Below, piece after piece: positions 22,596 to 62,125 of a DNA stretch of 64,000 nucleotides. The stretch is taken from positions 62,001-126,000 of the forward strand of contig JAKAJL010000004.1 in NCBI GenBank assembly GCA_021813805.1. The letters run 5' to 3'. The position numbers and the translations under genes were made by a program. Numbering within the stretch: the first letter of the stretch is position 1; each line of letters starts with the position of its first letter. Source of the stretch: Pseudomonadota bacterium. GTDB taxonomy: Bacteria; Pseudomonadota; Alphaproteobacteria; Rhizobiales; Beijerinckiaceae. The notes beneath the pieces are model-generated. The model was given only the letters and a program-made list of their open reading frames with translations, did no database searches and was not told the DNA's origin.

Positions 22596-22838
22596 TCAGG
22601 CGGCTTGCGCCGGAACCTCGCAGGCGGCGGGGTCGGCATGGCCATGCAGCGAGGCGTCGAAAACGTAAAGGGTCGAGCAATAGGGGCAGATCGCCTCGTC
22701 GTCCGCGCCCATGTCGATGTAAATGTGGGGGTGATCGAAGGGCGGCAGCGCCCCGATGCACATGAATTTCCTAGCGCCGATACGAATTTTCGGCAGTCCG
22801 GGCTGGTTGTGGAAATGCGGAATGGCGTGGTCCGACAT
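22596..22838 (-). CDS. Zinc-finger (zf-CHCC) domain protein, complex I NDUFS6-like
   Basis: 80 residues from ATG 22838 (MSDHAIPHFHNQPG). The pattern of HPHIYIDMG followed by AICPYCSTLYVFD, preceded by KFMCIGALPPFDHPH, gives the C-x(n)-H-x(n)-C-x2-C ligands of the zf-CHCC family. In alphaproteobacteria and mitochondria this domain occurs as the small NDUFS6-like accessory protein of complex I. It lies just upstream of the FAD monooxygenase on the same strand. A function in assembly or zinc binding is inferred from the family. Confidence 0.8.
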   Translation of the reverse strand: MSDHAIPHFHNQPGLPKIRIGARKFMCIGALPPFDHPHIYIDMGADDEAICPYCSTLYVFDASLHGHADPAACEVPAQAA

Positions 22839-22915
22839 GAAGGCTGGTTCCCAAAGGGGCGGCTGGCTGGCGACGCGGCGCACCATAATCAATGCCGCCC
22901 CGTTTGGGTAGGGGC

Positions 22916-23401
22916 TTAACTCCGCGTTCCGCCCAACATTTTTGCCAATAGAGCGTCGAGCGAAATCTTTCCGGGCCCATGGAGGAAAATGGCGAGCGCC
23001 GCCGCCGCCCAGATCAGGTGGAAATTGGCCCAGGCGTCCGGTTCGGTGAGCTGGATGATCGCGGTCATGCCCAGGAGTCCGAGCGCCGCAAGCCGCGTCC
23101 CGAGGCCGAAGACGAGGAGAATCGGCAGCAGAACTTCCATGAGTCCCGAGGCGAAAGCCATGAGATGCGGGGCGGGGAAGGGATATTGCGCGCCCAGGAT
23201 ATGCAGCTTGAACTCGTCGGTGAACAGGGCGTCGGCGCTGTCGCTCAAGCTGAGAAAGGCGTCCCATTTGGTCATGCCCGACCGGTAGAAGGGAATGGCG
23301 AGCGCGCAGCGCAGGCCCAGTTGCGCGGCGCTTTCAAGAAAAGGCCGCAAAACGCGCGGGAGAGGCGGTTCGATCAGTAGAGCCGGAATCGACAGTGTCA
23401 T
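22916..23401 (-). CDS. DoxX family membrane protein (bufferin-cluster member)
   Basis: 161 residues, four transmembrane segments (about 26-43, 68-94, 98-117, 121-143). The pattern of a conserved Arg-Ser-Gly-x-x-K in segment one (FYRSGMTKWDAF) and PAPHLMAFASGLMEVLLPILLVFGLGTRLAAL fits DoxX. Genes of this type are the usual last member of DUF2282-DUF692-DUF2063 clusters. The start ATG 23401 lies 15 bases after the stop of the fused MNIO-DUF2063 gene. The upstream frame is unrelated read-through. It is probably co-transcribed with the cluster and may serve a redox or transport role in the inner membrane. Confidence 0.82.
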   Translation of the reverse strand: MTLSIPALLIEPPLPRVLRPFLESAAQLGLRCALAIPFYRSGMTKWDAFLSLSDSADALFTDEFKLHILGAQYPFPAPHLMAFASGLMEVLLPILLVFGLGTRLAALGLLGMTAIIQLTEPDAWANFHLIWAAAALAIFLHGPGKISLDALLAKMLGGTRS

Positions 23402-23415
23402 GGGGCGCTCCAATT

Positions 23416-25101
23416 TCAGTTGCTTTCGAGGATGAAGGCGGCGAAGGCGCCGGCCTCGGTCAAAGCGACCAGCGTCTGGCCGAAGTCGAAGCCTGGCTCG
23501 GCGGAGTCGCCGGCCTCGGCGGCTTCCCCGAGCGTCGCGCCGCCGCCGCAGGCGGACAGAAAGGCCGCGGCGCCGGGCGCGAGCGCCATCAGTCGCGATT
23601 CGGCGTCGGGCCGCAGAACCAGGATCGTTGCGCCGCGCCAGTCGGCGATCTTGCGGCCTTCCGGGTCGCGCAAGGCGAGCAGCGGCCAGTCCGAGGCGAC
23701 GAGCGCGAGCGAGGGATGGAGTTTTACCCGCGCCACGACGATGGCCGCGAGGTCGAGCGCCGCGAGTCGCGCCAGCGGGCAGGGCTCGGTTTGGGGCGCG
23801 CGGAGGGCTTGCAGCACGGCCCAGTCGAGCCGGGCGACATCGGGGAGGTAAGGAACTTCGGTGACGTCCTGATTTTCGAGAAATCGGGCGAGAAAATCGG
23901 GGAATTCTCGGCCATAGTCTGCCAGAATCGGCGAAACCGGCGGGGTCTCTTGCGCAAAAGCCCGCGCCGCGCCGCGAAAGGCCTCGTCGCCGACGAGTCG
24001 CGACACGGTCGGAAACTGCGCCTTCAGCGCCTCGATGGCGGCGACCGCCGAATTGTTGCGATAGACGGCGAAACGCGCCGGCGCGTCGCAATGGGCGAAC
24101 AGGGGAGGCACAGTCGCGGCGGGGTCTTGCAGGGCGGCTGCGAAGGCGCGCTGCCATCGGGCGTCGCTTTGCGCGGCGGCGCGCTCGTCGCCGGAAGGCG
24201 CCGCGCGAGAAGGGCTTCGGTCGGCCTGCCGGCAGGGAAGGGGCGCGTCGGCGCGATCAAAGCGCAGAATTTTCCGCGCTTTCGCCGTTTCCGTCCAAAG
24301 CTCCTCCCAATCGGGGACGTTATTGTCCCATTCGACCAGGGTCGGGCGTGGGCCGGCGCCTGCGATCACATGGCGGTAGAGCGCCCACACGTCTTCGCTG
24401 ACCGGGCCGCCGTGATCGTCGATCAGGAAGGCGCCGTTTTTGTCCTCGGCCCGCGCGTGTCCGGCGAGGTGGATTTCGCCAACCCGCCGATAGGGAAAGC
24501 TGTCGAGATAAGCGCGGGCGTTAAAGCCGTGGTTGACCGCGCTGACAAAGACATTGTTGACGTCGAGCAGCAGGCCGCAGCCGGTCCGCGCGCAAAGCTC
24601 GGCCAGGAAGCGCGGCTCGGCCAGGGTATCGCCGGCGAAGCGCAGATAGGTCGCGGGGTTTTCGATCAGGATCGGGCGGCGGAGAACGTCCTGAACGATC
24701 TCGATTTTTGCCGCGACGCGGGCGAGCGCGGCGTCGTCATAGGGCAGGGGCAGGAGGTCGGGAAAGGCTTGGTCGGCAAAATGGCTCCAGGCGAGATGTT
24801 CGGACACCAGCGCCGGGGCGGCGAAATCCACGACGTCCTTCAGCCGCGCCAGATGGCCGAGATCGAGTTTTTCGGTCGAGCCGAGCGACAGTCCGACGCC
24901 ATGGACGGAAATCGGAAAGATCTCGCGGATGGCGGCGAGCAGGCGGCGGTTGGGGCCGCCCGCGTTCATGTAATTCTCGGCATGGATTTCGAAAAAGCCG
25001 ACGTCGGGCCGCGCCGCCAGAATGTCCGCGCCATGGGCCGGCTTGAATCCGGCGCCCACGGCGTCCGGCGCGATGTCACAGCTTTGAACGCAAAGCGTCA
25101 T
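23416..25101 (-). CDS. Fused MNIO (DUF692, BufB-type) and DUF2063 (BufC-type) protein
   Basis: 561 residues. Residues ~14-282 are a DUF692/MNIO domain with its metal-site motifs: EIHAENY (38-44), VHGVGLS (His67), SEHLAWS (His102), IENPATYL (Glu147), LLDVNNV (Asp180), HLAGH (His211/His215), IDDHG (228-231) and VEWDNN (Glu257). A linker (~283-312) leads to a DUF2063 domain (~315-420) with [21 protein letters not shown] and [16 protein letters not shown], then a C-terminal region to 561. In the clusters I know, these two are separate adjacent genes. By family the MNIO domain oxidatively modifies Cys residues in the precursor encoded next to it, with DUF2063 as its recognition partner. It lies 24 bases after the precursor gene. 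Confidence 0.85.
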
Positions 25102-25125
25102 GGCGGCGCGGCTCCATTCGAGAAA

Positions 25126-25419
25126 TCAGGATTTCGGACGGTCGCGGTCGAGTGCGGTGAGCGAGCCGGTCCGTCCGCCGGGCAGTTTCATCGCCGCGCA
25201 GGTTCCCGCCGGCACGAATTTCCATTCATTGCCCTGGTAATCGAGGGCGGAGGTTCCGGCGCAGGTGGTTCCGGCGCCTGCCGCGCAATCGTTGGTTCCC
25301 TTCAGCGCGACGCCGAAGCACTTTTCCTGCTTGGACCCCGCATGGGCGGGCACGGCGGCCAAGGCCGACGCCAGCGAGGCGGCGAGGGCGAGCGGGCGGG
25401 AAAAACTGGACTTGCTCAT
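25126..25419 (-). CDS. Bufferin-type precursor peptide (DUF2282)
   Basis: 97 residues with a signal peptide (cleavage near AHA-GS, residue 27) and four cysteines: Cys34 ([10 protein letters not shown]), Cys45 (NDCAAG), Cys53 (TTCAG) and Cys74 (AGTCAAM). This matches DUF2282, the exported precursor family recently described as bufferins: RiPPs whose cysteines are modified by an MNIO enzyme and which chelate copper in the periplasm. AAGGAGGAG precedes ATG 25419. It heads an operon with the fused MNIO-DUF2063 gene and the DoxX gene, and faces the SigF-type sigma factor gene. Expression under that sigma factor is inferred from the shared -35 motif. Confidence 0.85.
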
Positions 25420-25463
25420 GTTGAATTCTCCTCCTTCGGCGGGCGCTCCCGCCTGTTCTGCCT

Positions 25464-25488
25464 TACGGAGGCGGGGCGGCTCCGTTAC
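25464..25488 (-). promoter_or_regulatory. Putative SigF-type promoter of the bufferin operon
   Basis: On the minus strand GTAACG (25488-25483) is followed after 15 bases by CGTA (25467-25464), 45 bases upstream of the precursor ATG. This resembles the Caulobacter SigF consensus GTAAC-N16-CGAA. The -10 is imperfect. The call rests on the match and on the neighbouring sigma factor gene. Confidence 0.5.
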
Positions 25489-25557
25489 GCGGCGGGCCAA
25501 AAAAAATCGCGGCGGCGAAAAATGCGCATGGGACGGTGCAATTTCGACCTTTCCGAT

Positions 25558-25583
25558 GTAACAATCCGCCGCGCTTGCGCGAA
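25558..25583 (+). promoter_or_regulatory. Putative autoregulatory SigF-type promoter of the sigma factor gene
   Basis: GTAACA (25558-25563), then exactly 16 bases, then CGAA (25580-25583). This agrees with the SigF promoter motif known from Caulobacter. If used, transcription would begin only about 6 bases before the ATG at 25596, giving an almost leaderless mRNA, so an alternative upstream start site should be considered. Confidence 0.5.
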
Positions 25584-25595
25584 AAAGGATTTTGG

Positions 25596-26168
25596 ATGCC
25601 GGATATTCTGGCGCGGGATCGGGAATGGAGCGCGGCCATGCGGGCGGCGCTTGCCGGCGACGGCGCGGCCTATCGGCGCCTGCTCGCCGAACTCGTTCCT
25701 TTCCTGCGCAGGATTTGCTTGAATTCATGCGCGCGCGCCGGCCTTTCGGCGAGCGAGGCGGAGGACGCCGTGCAGGAAACCCTGCTCGCCATCCATCTTA
25801 AGCGGCACACCTGGGATCAGAATCAGCCGCTGAGGCCATGGCTTGCGGCCATCGCGCGCAATAAGATGATCGACGCGGCGCGCCGGCGCGGGCGCCGCGC
25901 GGAGATGGACATCGCCGATTTCGAGGATGTCCTGGCCGCCCCCGTCGAGGCGGACAATTTCGAGCGGGAGATGGACCGTCAGGGCGCCTTGCGCCTGCTC
26001 GACCTTTTGAGCGCCAAACAGCGCGAGGCGATCGAGGCGGTGTCGATCAGGGGAGAAAGCCTGCGCGACGCCGCGAAAAATCTGGGCGTCAGCGAGGGCG
26101 CCCTGCGGGTGTCGGTGCATCGTGGCCTCAAGGCGCTTGCGGAACTCTATCGAAAATTGAACGCGTGA
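25596..26168 (+). CDS. sigF: ECF RNA polymerase sigma factor, SigF type
   Basis: 190 residues from ATG 25596 ([11 protein letters not shown]). Region 2 has [46 protein letters not shown] and [24 protein letters not shown]. Region 4 has [45 protein letters not shown]. The short linker and the adjoining DUF1109 gene identify the SigF/NrsF subgroup, which in Caulobacter responds to heavy-metal and oxidative stress and controls DUF2282-DUF692 operons. Here the candidate target operon is divergent, 176 bases away. The stop lies four bases before the anti-sigma gene. Confidence 0.87.
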
Positions 26169-26172
26169 AGAC

Positions 26173-26811
26173 ATGAAGACCGAGGACCTCATCTCCGCTC
26201 TGGCGGCGGACAACGACACCAAGCAGGCGACCCTGTCGCGGGCCTTCGGGCTCGATCTCGGCCTGGGTTTCTGCGTCTCGGCCCTTTTCTTCTTCAGCTT
26301 CCTCGGTCTGCGACCGACCTTTTTCGCGTCGCTTGACGAACCGCGCTTCCTGTTCAAATTCCTGTTCAGCGCGACCATGGCGGCGAGCGGTCTGGTTCTG
26401 GCCTGGCGGCTATCGCGGCCGGGCGCCGATCCCGGCCTCGCCCGCCGCGCGGTTTTCCTCGCGCCCGCGCTTGTCGCCGTCGCCAGCCTGATCGAAATGG
26501 CGGTCGTTCCGCCGGATCAATGGGCGACGCGGATGATCGGCCATAACGCCGTTCACTGCCTGACGCTCATTCCCTTCATGTCGCTGGCGCCGCTGGCCGG
26601 CCTGTTCCTGGCCTTGCGCCACGGCGCGCCGAGCGATCCGCATCGCGCGGGCGCGGCGGCGGCCCTTGCCTCCGCAGGTCTCGCGGCTCTGCTTTACGCC
26701 GCCAATTGTCCCGACGATTCGCCTTTCTTCGTCGCGGTCTGGTATATGATCGCGGCTTCGATCGTCGTCGCCTTCGGCTGGTTCGCCGGCGGGCGGCTGC
26801 TGCGCTGGTAA
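26173..26811 (+). CDS. nrsF: Anti-sigma factor NrsF (DUF1109), six-pass membrane protein
   Basis: 212 residues, six hydrophobic segments spread from about residue 28 to 208, a short cytoplasmic N terminus (KTEDLISALAADND) and the DUF1109 pattern. Cys129 (VHCLTL) and Cys179 (ANCPDDSP) are 50 residues apart, the same spacing as the two conserved NrsF cysteines that are important for metal sensing in Caulobacter; an additional Cys34 is present. It is co-transcribed with the sigma factor (4-base gap). It probably holds SigF at the membrane until metal or thiol stress. Confidence 0.85.
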   Translation: MKTEDLISALAADNDTKQATLSRAFGLDLGLGFCVSALFFFSFLGLRPTFFASLDEPRFLFKFLFSATMAASGLVLAWRLSRPGADPGLARRAVFLAPALVAVASLIEMAVVPPDQWATRMIGHNAVHCLTLIPFMSLAPLAGLFLALRHGAPSDPHRAGAAAALASAGLAALLYAANCPDDSPFFVAVWYMIAASIVVAFGWFAGGRLLRW

Positions 26812-32257: not shown

Positions 32258-33025
32258 ATGCGCGAACGCGAGCCGATCTTCAATCTGCCGCCGGTGATCG
32301 TCGTTCTTCTGGCGATCCTGACCCTGATCCAAGTCGTCCGCGGCATGATTCCGCCTGAACTCGACGGCGCAATCGTCGCGACTTTCGGCTTCACGCCGGC
32401 GCGAGTGGCCTTTCTCTTCGATCAGAAGGCGGTGCTCCAACACCTGAACGAGATCGCCGGCCAATCCGAGGTTCAGGCCCAGATCGGGGCCTTTTTCCTG
32501 ACCTATGCTTCGCCGTCCTGGCTGTGGTTCACGCCCTTGTCCTACGCCTTCCTGCATGGTGGCGCGACCCATCTGGTTTTCAACGGGATCTGGCTCGCGG
32601 CTTTCGGCTCCCCGGTGGCGCGGCGCTTCGGAACGGCTCGTTTTCTGCTCCTGGGCGGCCTGGGGGCGGTCGTCGGGGCGGCGGCCTATCTGGCGGCTCA
32701 TCCGCTTGAGTTGGCGCCGATGATCGGCGCCTCGGCCGCGATTTCCGCGTATATGGGGGCGGCGGCGCGTTTCGTTTTTCCCCTCCGCGGACCTTATCGA
32801 GCGGAAACGGCATTCGAAGCGCCAATGCAGAGCGTTGGGGACATGCTCGCCAGCGTCCAGACCATGGCCTTTGTCGCCTTCTGGTTCCTCTCCAACCTGC
32901 TCATCGGCCTCGGCGGCCAGACCTTGGGTTTTTCGCAGGCCCCGATTGCCTGGCAGGCTCATATCGGCGGCTTCGCCGCCGGTCTGTTTCTCGCGCCGAT
33001 ATTCGACCAAAGGCGCAAAAAATGA
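32258..33025 (+). CDS. Rhomboid family intramembrane serine protease
   Basis: 255 residues from ATG 32258, with AGGGGAGG about nine bases before it. Six transmembrane segments. The catalytic Ser159 is in GASAAISAYMG and His235 in AWQAHIGGFAAG; the family motif SYAFLHGGATHLVFNGIWLAAFGSPVARRFG with its His-Gly-Gly and Asn oxyanion residue is present. The product cleaves within membrane-spanning segments of other proteins; substrates are unknown. It is preceded by a terminator-bearing leader and followed by the CBS protein gene 95 bases downstream. Confidence 0.88.
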   Translation: MREREPIFNLPPVIVVLLAILTLIQVVRGMIPPELDGAIVATFGFTPARVAFLFDQKAVLQHLNEIAGQSEVQAQIGAFFLTYASPSWLWFTPLSYAFLHGGATHLVFNGIWLAAFGSPVARRFGTARFLLLGGLGAVVGAAAYLAAHPLELAPMIGASAAISAYMGAAARFVFPLRGPYRAETAFEAPMQSVGDMLASVQTMAFVAFWFLSNLLIGLGGQTLGFSQAPIAWQAHIGGFAAGLFLAPIFDQRRKK

Positions 33026-33120
33026 AGGCGAAGCCCTCGCTTGCGCTCTGTCGTGAACGGGGGCATCCTCCATTCAATAAAGGGGTTAAGAAAAACTCCA
33101 GATACAAAGGGAGGAAATCG

Positions 33121-33552
33121 ATGAGCGTGGCTTTCATTCTTGCGGCCAAGGGTCACGACGTGGCCACGACGCAGCCGCATCGCACGATGCAGGAAGCGGC
33201 GGCCGTGCTCGCCGACAAGGGAATCGGCGCGCTGATCGTCACCGGCGGCGGCGGGGAGGTTCTGGGCGTTCTGTCGGAGCGCGACATCGTTCGCACTGTC
33301 GGGCGCCACGGCGCCGGCGCCCTTCAGGATCCGGTGTCGAAACACATGACCGCCAAGGTCGCGACGGCCAGCATGGAGGAATCGATGGAAAGCGTGATGG
33401 AGCGGATGACCAACGGACGCTTCCGCCACCTACCCGTCCTCGACAACGGACGGCTCGCCGGCGTGATCTCGATTGGCGATGTCGTCAAGAACCGGCTCGA
33501 AGGGCTCGAGTCCGAACATCGCGCCATGCGCGAATATATCGCCACCGCCTGA
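33121..33552 (+). CDS. CBS-domain pair protein
   Basis: 143 residues from ATG 33121 (MSVAFILAAKGHDV), with GGGAGG upstream; the frame open from 33022 is not used. Two CBS motifs are visible: VLADKGIGALIVTGGGGEVLGVLSERDIVRTV (about 25-62) and RMTNGRFRHLPVLDNGRLAGVISIGDVVKNRLEGLE (about 92-130). A paired CBS unit forms a Bateman module that binds adenosyl nucleotides. Such stand-alone proteins modulate partner enzymes or channels by energy state. Partner unknown. Confidence 0.85.
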   Translation: MSVAFILAAKGHDVATTQPHRTMQEAAAVLADKGIGALIVTGGGGEVLGVLSERDIVRTVGRHGAGALQDPVSKHMTAKVATASMEESMESVMERMTNGRFRHLPVLDNGRLAGVISIGDVVKNRLEGLESEHRAMREYIATA

Positions 33553-33561
33553 GCAAGTGCT

Positions 33562-34608
33562 TCAGGGTTTCACGACGGGGCCTTCGTAGCGGCGCTCCAG
33601 CGCCGCGATTTCGGCGATGTCGTTAAGCGCGCGGCGCGCCGCCTCGCGGCCGAGCGCGATCAGTTCGTCGGCGCGGTGGAAGTCGAAAAAGCCGATCCTG
33701 GACAGCCGCGCGGCGATCAGCACGTCGGGCGGGTCGCCCGCAAGCCGCGAGCGCGCGATCCGATCCTGGGTGATGTTGAACGCGTCGAACATGGCCGCCG
33801 CGATGCCGGGCGCTCCATTGGCGGCGCGCCCGAACTGCCGGCGCAACTGGCGCGCGTCGGTCGCGCGCCAGGATGTTTCTTCCGCGGCTGAGGCGGGGGG
33901 CTGCGGCTCCGTCGCCAAGCTGGCGGCGTCGGCGATCAAGGTTCCGCGATAGGCGGCGTCGCCGACCAGATTGACTGCGATCACCAGTTCGGCCCCCATG
34001 GCGCGGCACAGAGTGACGGGAACCGGATTGACCAGGGCGCCGTCGAACAGCCACCGTCCGCCGATTTGCAAGGGTTCGAAGACGCCCGGCAGGGCGTAGG
34101 AGGCGCGGATGGCGTGGACGAGATCGCCCTTGCGCAGCCAAACCTCGTGACCGGCTCCGATTTCCGTCGCCACGGCGCCGAAGACGACGGGCAAGTCCTC
34201 GATGCGGCGGCCTTCAAGCTCGCGATAAAGCTCGTCCCGGAGTTTGCCGCCCGACATCATGCCGCCGCCGGACAGGGACAGGTCCATCAGTGAAAAGACG
34301 CGGCGGCGCGTCAGCGAACGGGCGAACGCCTCCAGTCCCGCGAGCTTTCCGGCGGCGTAGCAGCCGCCGACCACCGCGCCGATCGATGATCCGGCAATGA
34401 CGTCGATAGGAATTTGGCGCGCCGCAAGTTCCTGAAGCACGCCGATATGCGACCAGCCGCGCGCGGCGCCGGAGCCGAGCGCCAGACCGATGCGCGGCCG
34501 CCGACGCGCGCCGCTTCGGCCATCCCAGGGCGGGTGGCCGTCGCCGTCGCGCGCCGCCGAAAATGACTCGCCGGATCTATCGAAGGTCTTCCAATTAAAA
34601 CCGAACAT
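33562..34608 (-). CDS. Patatin-like phospholipase
   Basis: 348 residues from ATG 34608, with GAGGA upstream; the longer frame from 34692 is rejected. The glycine-rich oxyanion motif GLALGSGAARGWSHIG precedes nucleophile Ser75 in GSSIG, and the catalytic Asp189 is in FDGALVNPVP. This Ser-Asp dyad is that of bacterial patatins (RssA/YchK group). Likely a lipid acyl hydrolase associated with the membrane. It ends nine bases past the CBS stop on the opposite strand, so the two genes are convergent. Confidence 0.86.
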   Translation of the reverse strand: MFGFNWKTFDRSGESFSAARDGDGHPPWDGRSGARRRPRIGLALGSGAARGWSHIGVLQELAARQIPIDVIAGSSIGAVVGGCYAAGKLAGLEAFARSLTRRRVFSLMDLSLSGGGMMSGGKLRDELYRELEGRRIEDLPVVFGAVATEIGAGHEVWLRKGDLVHAIRASYALPGVFEPLQIGGRWLFDGALVNPVPVTLCRAMGAELVIAVNLVGDAAYRGTLIADAASLATEPQPPASAAEETSWRATDARQLRRQFGRAANGAPGIAAAMFDAFNITQDRIARSRLAGDPPDVLIAARLSRIGFFDFHRADELIALGREAARRALNDIAEIAALERRYEGPVVKP

Positions 34609-34664
34609 GGCCCGGTCCTCAATTGAGACGCCCGCCTGAATTCGCTTCCCGATGCAAAGCTTTT

Positions 34665-61396: not shown

Positions 61397-62125
61397 TCAC
61401 TTCTCCCGCCCGGGCAGATCGACCTGGAGGTCCACTTGGCTGATCGGCGCCTGGTCGTAAAGCCTTGCGCCGATCGGCGTCGCGAAGCCGACCTCCTTGC
61501 GCAATATGGCGCCGACCGGGCAGACCTCGGCCGCCTTGTCTGTCGCCGCGAAATCGGTGTCGCCGAGCCTTCCGCTCGGCGAATTCACGATGATATGCGA
61601 CTCGCGTCCTCGCCCGGCGAGGGCGAAAATATTCTTGCCATCCACGTCGCGGCTGGCGCGCACGCAGAGTTCGCACATGATGCAGCGGTTGAAGTCGAGA
61701 AAGAACTCTGGATGCGAGGCGTCGATCTCGCGATGGGGAAAGAACTGCACGAAATGCGGCGAGAGCATTTCGAGATCATAGGCCAGCGCCTGCAATTTGC
61801 AGCGGCCGCTCTTTTCGCACCCCGGGCAGAAATGATTGCCCTCGACGAACAGCATCTGCAGCAGCACGCGGCGGATTTCATGAAGCTCGGGCGTGTCGCT
61901 GCGCACCTCCTGGCCCGGCGCGGCTTCTATCGTGCAGGCTGAGCCGTCGCGGCCGTTGACGGTCACGGCGCACAGTTTGCACGAGCCGTGGGGCGGAAAA
62001 TCGGGATGGGCGCAGAGATGCGGAATATAGACTCCCGCCGCCGTCGCCGCCGTCAGAATGGTCTGGCCGGGGGCAAAGGCGATGACCTGGCCGTCGAGCG
62101 TGAAGCTGCCGCCGCCTTCGCTCAT
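61397..62125 (-). CDS. hoxU: NAD-reducing hydrogenase diaphorase subunit HoxU
   Basis: 242 residues. The N-terminal ferredoxin-like [2Fe-2S] domain has CAHPDFPPHGSCKLC. It is followed by the NuoG-type HFCPGCEKSGRC motif, and two further cluster motifs CIMCELCVRASR and CPVGAI. It relays electrons between HoxY and HoxF. ATG 62125 overlaps the hoxF stop by four bases. Confidence 0.95.
   Translation of the reverse strand: MSEGGGSFTLDGQVIAFAPGQTILTAATAAGVYIPHLCAHPDFPPHGSCKLCAVTVNGRDGSACTIEAAPGQEVRSDTPELHEIRRVLLQMLFVEGNHFCPGCEKSGRCKLQALAYDLEMLSPHFVQFFPHREIDASHPEFFLDFNRCIMCELCVRASRDVDGKNIFALAGRGRESHIIVNSPSGRLGDTDFAATDKAAEVCPVGAILRKEVGFATPIGARLYDQAPISQVDLQVDLPGREK

Follow-up and report, generated by a model that had tools for sequence, protein, structure and literature searches.

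A bufferin 1 cluster with a fused gene for a predicted maturase

We analysed a 64,000-nucleotide stretch of DNA (hereafter the window; positions 62,001 to 126,000 of contig JAKAJL010000004.1, assembly GCA_021813805.1) from a Beijerinckiaceae bacterium, in which five genes encode a DUF2282 bufferin precursor (BufA), an MNIO enzyme joined to its DUF2063-containing partner (PME) in one polypeptide (BufBC), a DoxX protein, a SigF-type sigma factor and an NrsF-type anti-sigma factor (Table 1). Most MNIOs, which install unusual Cys-derived heterocycles, work only with a partner protein (PMC13419390). The genes bufA, bufBC and doxX, separated by 24 and 14 bases respectively, lie divergent from sigF and nrsF. 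The initial annotation of this DNA had proposed a one-piece enzyme of 561 residues, and this is borne out by a single frame that matches both Pfam domains and scores above the cut-off for BufB. Family matches and coordinates likewise agree with its description of a four-cysteine DUF2282 precursor and a DoxX gene divergent from SigF/NrsF. The bufBC frame is free of stops, including between residues 283 and 312, where one was looked for. We placed the start of sigF at an ATG, whereas the mechanical open reading frame begins at a GTG at position 25536.

BufA carries cysteines at positions 34, 45, 53 and 74, and its N-terminus was judged by eye to be a Sec-type signal peptide. It scores 21.8 against the NCBIfam BufA2 model, which has a cut-off of 60, and it is therefore not of the Buf2 type. 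A four-Cys DUF2282 precursor (signal peptide by eye) encoded beside an MNIO, a PME and DoxX identifies the locus as a bufferin 1 cluster.

Table 1. Coordinates of genes, protein segments and candidate promoters in the window
Feature	Size	Coordinates	Strand	Evidence
bufA, Buf1-type (DUF2282) bufferin precursor	97 aa	25126..25419	-	PF10048, E 2.2e-23
bufBC, fused MNIO-PME	561 aa	23416..25101	-	PF05114 and PF09836 in a single frame
MNIO (BufB) domain	residues 15-279	24265..25059	-	PF05114, E 2.4e-101
Linker between Pfam matches	residues 280-315 (36 residues)	24157..24264	-	Pfam boundaries
PME-type 1 (BufC) half, DUF2063 and C-terminal RRE-like domain	residues 316-561	23416..24156	-	PF09836, half-model
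doxX	161 aa	22916..23401	-	PF07681, E 9.4e-15
sigF, SigF-type extracytoplasmic function (ECF) sigma factor	190 aa	25596..26168	+	NF009165, 218 bits against a cut-off of 198
nrsF, membrane anti-sigma factor	212 aa	26173..26811	+	PF06532, E 3e-52
SigF-like promoter of bufA, GTAACG-N15-CGTA		25464..25488	-	Motif match; counterpart in 7/7 genomes (N16 in G009)
SigF-like promoter of sigF, GTAACA-N16-CGAA		25558..25583	+	One mismatch to the published motif; 6/7 genomes (not G009)

Domains, conserved residues and predicted fold of the fused protein

The first half of BufBC matches PF05114 with 338.9 bits (cut-off 25) and the NCBIfam MNIO_BufB model with 363.6 bits (cut-off 310). Eleven polar positions of this half are invariant in every covering row of a 164-row MNIO alignment: His67, His102, Asp115, Glu147, Asp180, Asn183, His211, Asp228, His230, Glu257 and Asp259. 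We take these positions to be putative iron ligands. Asp228 and His230 are, from a D-x-H alignment with the homologue 3bww, probably the counterparts of D242 and H244 of HvfB. The latter are named together with N175 in that enzyme, where loss of D242/H244 abolishes activity (PMC13419390). An AlphaFold model of the full chain has a mean predicted local distance difference test score (pLDDT) of 91.1 and a predicted template modelling score (pTM) of 0.89, with low confidence at residues 1-6 and 290-300. Its MNIO half folds like TglH (Z 28.2, 2.6 A over 268 residues) and 3bww (Z 27.5, 1.9 A over 244 residues), and also like MbnB.

The PF09836/DUF2063 match covers residues 316-404 (E 1.7e-25, above the cut-off). 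Residues 300-561 modelled alone (262 aa, pLDDT 94.8) match the fold of TglI (E 1.9e-5) and of 3dee, a DUF2063-RRE protein (E 1.5e-3, probability 1.00), with weak matches to TbiB1 RRE entries as well (E 1.9 and above). The PME alignment used as a profile against the PDB gave no matches at E 0.1, although the folds match. As this half carries both DUF2063 and a C-terminal RRE-like domain, the whole partner protein is fused and not DUF2063 alone. Type 1 PMEs are defined as DUF2063 plus a full RRE-type domain of about 250-260 aa (PMC12452194), and the second half of BufBC has this composition. PMEs of this type are also expected as proteins of their own, with a gene that follows the one for the MNIO; here the two share a frame without a stop, so that this is a PME-like half and not a free PME.

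Properties of the linker

The two domain envelopes are separated by about 6 to 75 residues across the natural fusions of the four groups described below. In the window's protein the model confidence of the linker falls below 50 at residues 290-300. Among the seven fusions of the genus, mean identity is 0.78 in the MNIO half, 0.68 in the PME half and 0.23 in the linker. The ratio of nonsynonymous to synonymous substitution rates (dN/dS) between the window's gene and the other six is 0.25-0.33 for the MNIO half, 0.27-0.47 for the PME half and 0.68-2.65 for the linker (17-28 codons), values that come from seven sequences, a simple method and an unreliable linker alignment. From these comparisons both halves look conserved by selection and the linker looks free. 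No in-frame ATG, GTG or TTG occurs in the window's gene from about residue 275 to 324, which makes a separate BufC arising by ordinary internal initiation unlikely.

The linker of genome G009 (L156:3170-3297; G and L labels denote genomes and loci in our collection) consists, in frame, of one copy of a dispersed element that has inverted-repeat arms and 54 matches in that genome. A similar source for the window's linker was considered and is unsupported, its own genome giving only the linker itself and two weak partial matches. The linker of G1190 (L201:4011-5891), natural and long, has a high content of Gly, Ser, Ala and Thr and resembles engineered flexible linkers. In G004 (L013/L151) the fused enzyme carries roughly three tandem copies of a VGAGLKPAH-like motif at its N-terminus.

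Conservation within the genus

Based on a sample of 11 Rhodoblastus-type genomes, PF05114 is present in seven, and all seven carry the fused frame at the same locus. Its neighbourhood is kept: the genes for SigF, NrsF and a hydrolase flank it in one direction, and those for DoxX, a zinc-finger protein, an FAD enzyme and a MipZ-type ATPase in the other, some of them being cut off where contigs or retrieved stretches end. In the window the zinc-finger gene (zf-CHCC, 22596-22841) lies directly downstream of doxX; it is present at 6/7 fused loci, and the G006 stretch stops before it.

One or two further, separate MNIO genes are found in 6/7 of the fused genomes; G006 has none. In the window's own genome (G000) a second, unfused MNIO cluster lies on the same contig outside the window (G000:C22, about 32651-34645; L150:2152-4146). 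Its BufB and BufC occupy separate frames and its precursor is, by eye, of the six-Cys Buf2 type, so that a single organism offers both the fused and the unfused form for comparison. We considered whether the fusion insulates the enzyme from cross-talk with a second MNIO system. This idea was not adopted: G006 has no second MNIO, four fused small-genome bacteria show one match each at E 1e-60, and other genera of the family with 2-6 MNIO matches show no intact fusion.

Distribution beyond the genus

We searched samples of the family, order, class and phylum, which overlap with one another. In the family sample, where fusions were called by frame length followed by a domain search of long frames, 77/199 genomes encode an MNIO and six carry a fusion, all of them of the window's genus. 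Genome G134 has a 455-aa MNIO-DUF2063 frame beside doxX (L179:5745-7109) that lacks the C-terminal barrel part and is probably a decayed fusion. Long-frame loci of the family sample were examined as hidden fusions; L144-L147 and L149 are not fused, and L148 is a truncated fusion.

In the order sample 214/397 genomes match at E 1e-20. Among the matches listed, the window's own gene is alone in spanning both halves without a stop, and at least eight places in at least seven genomes span both halves with exactly one in-frame stop. The class sample (132/385 genomes at E 1e-60) holds, besides the window's gene, at least four one-frame fusions confirmed by Pfam, all in small genomes (G586, G675, G881 and G934). 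In the phylum sample 104/398 genomes match the protein query at E 1e-60 and 87/398 match the profile at E 1e-100; the profile search yielded one-frame genes in G000 and G1190 and one-stop pairs in G275, G1227, G962 and G1187. The G1190 fusion, outside the window's class but within its phylum, was found through its long frame and confirmed by Pfam, the protein search having matched to residue 331 only. Twelve more long-frame or spanning loci from the order, class and phylum included one fusion (L189, again G1190) and one locus without a PME (L194). The fusion counts of these three samples are lower bounds for the set checked, outside which lie other long-frame rows, mostly with in-frame stops.

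A wider contig collection gave three fusions among 80 kept loci: L044 and L045, which belong to the genus genomes G007 and G009, and L046 of Methylococcaceae UBA2778. The 80 loci ranked highest among at least 567 relatives, under a score weighted towards one-frame and one-stop pairs. A DUF2282-type precursor is encoded near L046 and near 3/4 of the small-genome loci, none being found at L175, and a DUF2282-like precursor lies directly upstream of the G1190 fusion (L201). No relatives were found among viral contigs. On plasmids, 347/72,556 records match; judged by annotation, 14 of the 20 listed carry separate DUF692 and DNA-binding features and six are unannotated there.

The fusion is thus rare outside the genus but recurrent, occurring in Methylococcaceae UBA2778, in four bacteria of the class with small genomes and in one more genome of the phylum. 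Separate MNIO and DUF2063 proteins, which the initial annotation gave as the arrangement of known clusters, are indeed the rule, but the fusion is fixed in the genus sample (7/7 MNIO-bearing genomes) and recurs in three other groups. By the annotation's own test, whether close relatives show it commonly, the fusion therefore counts as ordinary inside the genus but as a rarity beyond it.

Number of fusion events

In a tree of MNIO halves (164 rows, 13 of them fused, including the truncated G134 and without G1190, after 17 duplicate or overlapping loci were skipped) the fused state requires four label changes, three of which are forced by starred branches. A tree of both halves without G134 requires three changes, all forced (67 rows), and with G1190 added requires four, all forced (77 rows). 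These later trees and tests sampled the unfused rows at every third one, with selected rows added, and left out G134 and the long-branch L146 and L147; the trees were quick, and G1190 sits on a long branch. A single clade for the 12 complete fused rows (Rhodoblastus, L046 and the small-genome group) was rejected by the approximately unbiased (AU) test (p 0.00104). Rhodoblastus and L046 as one clade was not rejected, with p 0.554 for the MNIO half, where the constrained tree was slightly better, and p 0.076 for both halves. The groups in these tests were named after the tree had been seen. At least two fusion origins are firmly supported, and four is the best count suggested by the trees.

The collected loci, a set biased towards same-frame loci, contain 145 unfused MNIO-PME pairs; the two genes share a frame in 20 of these and differ in frame in 125. 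Stop loss is therefore an available, but not a dominant, route to fusion.

SigF/NrsF and candidate promoters

NrsF contains Cys34, Cys129 and Cys179. The last two, 50 residues apart, are the two spaced cysteines that had been read from the sequence at the outset, and their spacing equals that of C131 and C181 in Caulobacter NrsF (PMC3511200). The protein scores 177.9 against PF06532 (cut-off 26.8) and 94.1 against the NCBIfam AntiSigF_NrsF equivalog (cut-off 300), and is therefore a member of the NrsF family without demonstrated strict orthology to the members of that model.

SigF of Caulobacter recognizes GTAACC-N16-CGAA (PMC3511200). Similar motifs precede both sigF and bufA (Table 1), that of bufA having CGTA in place of CGAA and a spacer that falls one base short of the published length. 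Three copies of the pattern lie in the 64-kb window, two at sigF/bufA and one inside another gene (45387), and of 5000 letter-shuffled versions of the intergenic stretch 46 contained at least one match; the pattern was loosened after inspection and these figures are supportive only.

Interpretation and alternative explanations

The 561-residue protein is very probably a natural single-chain bufferin maturase in a SigF-driven operon. By analogy with homologues, metal or thiol stress would be sensed through the NrsF cysteines and release SigF, which would transcribe its own gene and the divergent bufA-bufBC-doxX. BufB, an MNIO for Cys oxidation, would be tethered by a floppy linker to BufC, a type 1 PME that would bind the precursor through its RRE-like domain and support the active iron state. 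The tethered BufC half would dock on the barrel and present BufA, whose two central cysteines would be oxidized, probably to 5-thiooxazoles. Modified BufA would then be exported by Sec and bind copper in the periplasm, the metal being proposed from the family. The scheme draws on Caulobacter bufferin 1, to which 5-thiooxazoles have been assigned, and on the proposal that MNIO-PME1 clusters make them broadly (PMC13097082); in Buf1 the modification falls on the central cysteines, the outer pair being joined by a disulphide (PMC12452194). Since the domain order is that of an engineered HvfB-HvfC fusion (PMC13419390) and the residues listed above are invariant across the 164 MNIO rows, a tethered, always-paired BufB-BufC is the likeliest function.

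Several observations weigh against parts of this scheme. NrsF is present in 11/11 genomes of the genus, whereas DUF2282, MNIO and DUF2063 are present in 7/11; the other four (G001, G002, G003 and G010; L202-L205) keep sigF-nrsF without bufferin genes, each with a motif upstream of sigF (CGAA in three, CGTA in G003). The pair is therefore not dedicated to the bufferin cluster but forms a stable core, of which the bufferin operon is a client absent in some species. The self-contained metal-stress regulon of the initial annotation is consequently weakened, although SigF/NrsF does adjoin the operon with matching promoter motifs. The doxX of G009 (L156:2095-2493) matches only as two partial frames; it may be frameshifted in that assembly, or broken and dispensable. 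The full-chain model was built from an alignment in which 50/54 rows are unfused, and the small sample behind the dN/dS values counts here as well. Finally, the translated chain could be cut in the linker, or translation could re-initiate, leaving an ordinary BufB-BufC heterodimer as the working enzyme. The linker is disordered in the model and unconserved, Methylococcaceae UBA2778 keeps an ATG at the start of its PME half, in-frame start codons occur close to the junction in seven more fusions (L010, L011, L013, L015, L174, L175 and L176), and G1190 has five. We nevertheless regard such processing as improbable: the window's gene, L008, L009 and L173 have no in-frame ATG, GTG or TTG there, and an uncut engineered fusion is active (PMC13419390).

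An artefact of assembly or sequencing that deleted the stop between bufB and bufC has in its favour that the two genes can elsewhere lie in one frame with a single stop between them (at least eight places in at least seven genomes of the order sample, and ten loci, L047-L056), so that one wrong base could fuse them. It is already refuted, with next to no probability left to it, since seven genomes share the fusion with differing linkers; the sequencing error that the initial annotation had allowed for is excluded by the presence of the fusion in the other six genomes of the genus that have an MNIO. A second reading takes the DUF2063 half as a DNA-binding regulator that couples the enzyme to transcription, in keeping with the Pfam label "Putative DNA-binding domain" and with the transcriptional role proposed in the NGO1945 structure paper (PMC2954202). 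This is very improbable, as DUF2063-RRE proteins were later assigned as MNIO partners (PMC12452194), the SigF/NrsF pair already supplies regulation, and the fold of the PME half resembles that of TglI, which partners TglH. It is somewhat unlikely, yet to be taken seriously, that the product serves a non-copper metal or mainly sulfur or oxidative stress, with SigF/NrsF answering chromate, cadmium or oxidants and not copper. Caulobacter SigF responds to chromium and cadmium, and the accessible text of that study contains the word copper 0 times (PMC3511200). The G003 pair lies near cytochrome b561 and a molybdopterin oxidoreductase, with its motif about 400 bases upstream, and a YedY-type gene of the latter's domain family belongs to the Caulobacter SigF regulon (PMC3511200). 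Bufferins are, on the other side, reported to boost growth under copper stress by chelation (PMC12452194).

Relation to known systems and significance

The cluster type is ordinary. Caulobacter CC3254-CC3257 (DUF2282, DUF692, DUF2063, DoxX) encode the same four functions in the same order, likewise adjacent to the genes for SigF and NrsF (CC3253, CC3252), but CC3255 (DUF692, 280 aa) and CC3256 (DUF2063, 254 aa) are two proteins where BufBC is one (PMC3511200). The architecture is confirmed as unusual, conserved and recurrent. TglHI and MbnBC share the MNIO fold, and TglI resembles the PME half; both systems consist of two chains with other precursors and chemistry, in contrast to the single chain here. 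MovX and ChrH are, like BufBC, MNIOs with a fused extra domain, a C-terminal RRE in MovX and a domain of unknown function in ChrH, and neither is described in the accessible text as fused to a whole DUF2063-RRE partner (PMC13419390). In the openly available papers on MNIO and RRE that we searched or consulted in passages, we found no natural MNIO-DUF2063 fusion.

The closest counterpart is man-made. Engineered HvfBC, a Haemophilus oxazolin maturase built as a fusion because partner binding is weak, joins the MNIO C-terminus to the PME N-terminus in a single 1:1 chain, as here, and in product yield markedly surpasses co-expression of the two proteins (2026 preprint, PMC13419390). It has no linker and acts on another precursor type, whereas BufBC is natural, has 36 residues between its Pfam matches and is encoded with a DUF2282 precursor. 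The expectation that a fusion would fix 1:1 stoichiometry and ease enzymology, raised in the initial annotation, agrees with that preprint.

We tentatively propose, at somewhat less than even confidence, that one-chain MNIO-PME enzymes arose repeatedly in nature, in four groups, because tethering holds the iron enzyme partner-bound and catalytically competent and so speeds maturation under stress; they may be the first MNIOs for which one natural polypeptide, a whole DUF2063-RRE partner included, is active. For structural and mechanistic studies, the natural fusions from four bacterial groups provide single-chain enzymes that need no engineering. That they recur is evidence of the comparative (Rosetta-stone) kind for regarding the MNIO-PME pair as the functional unit.

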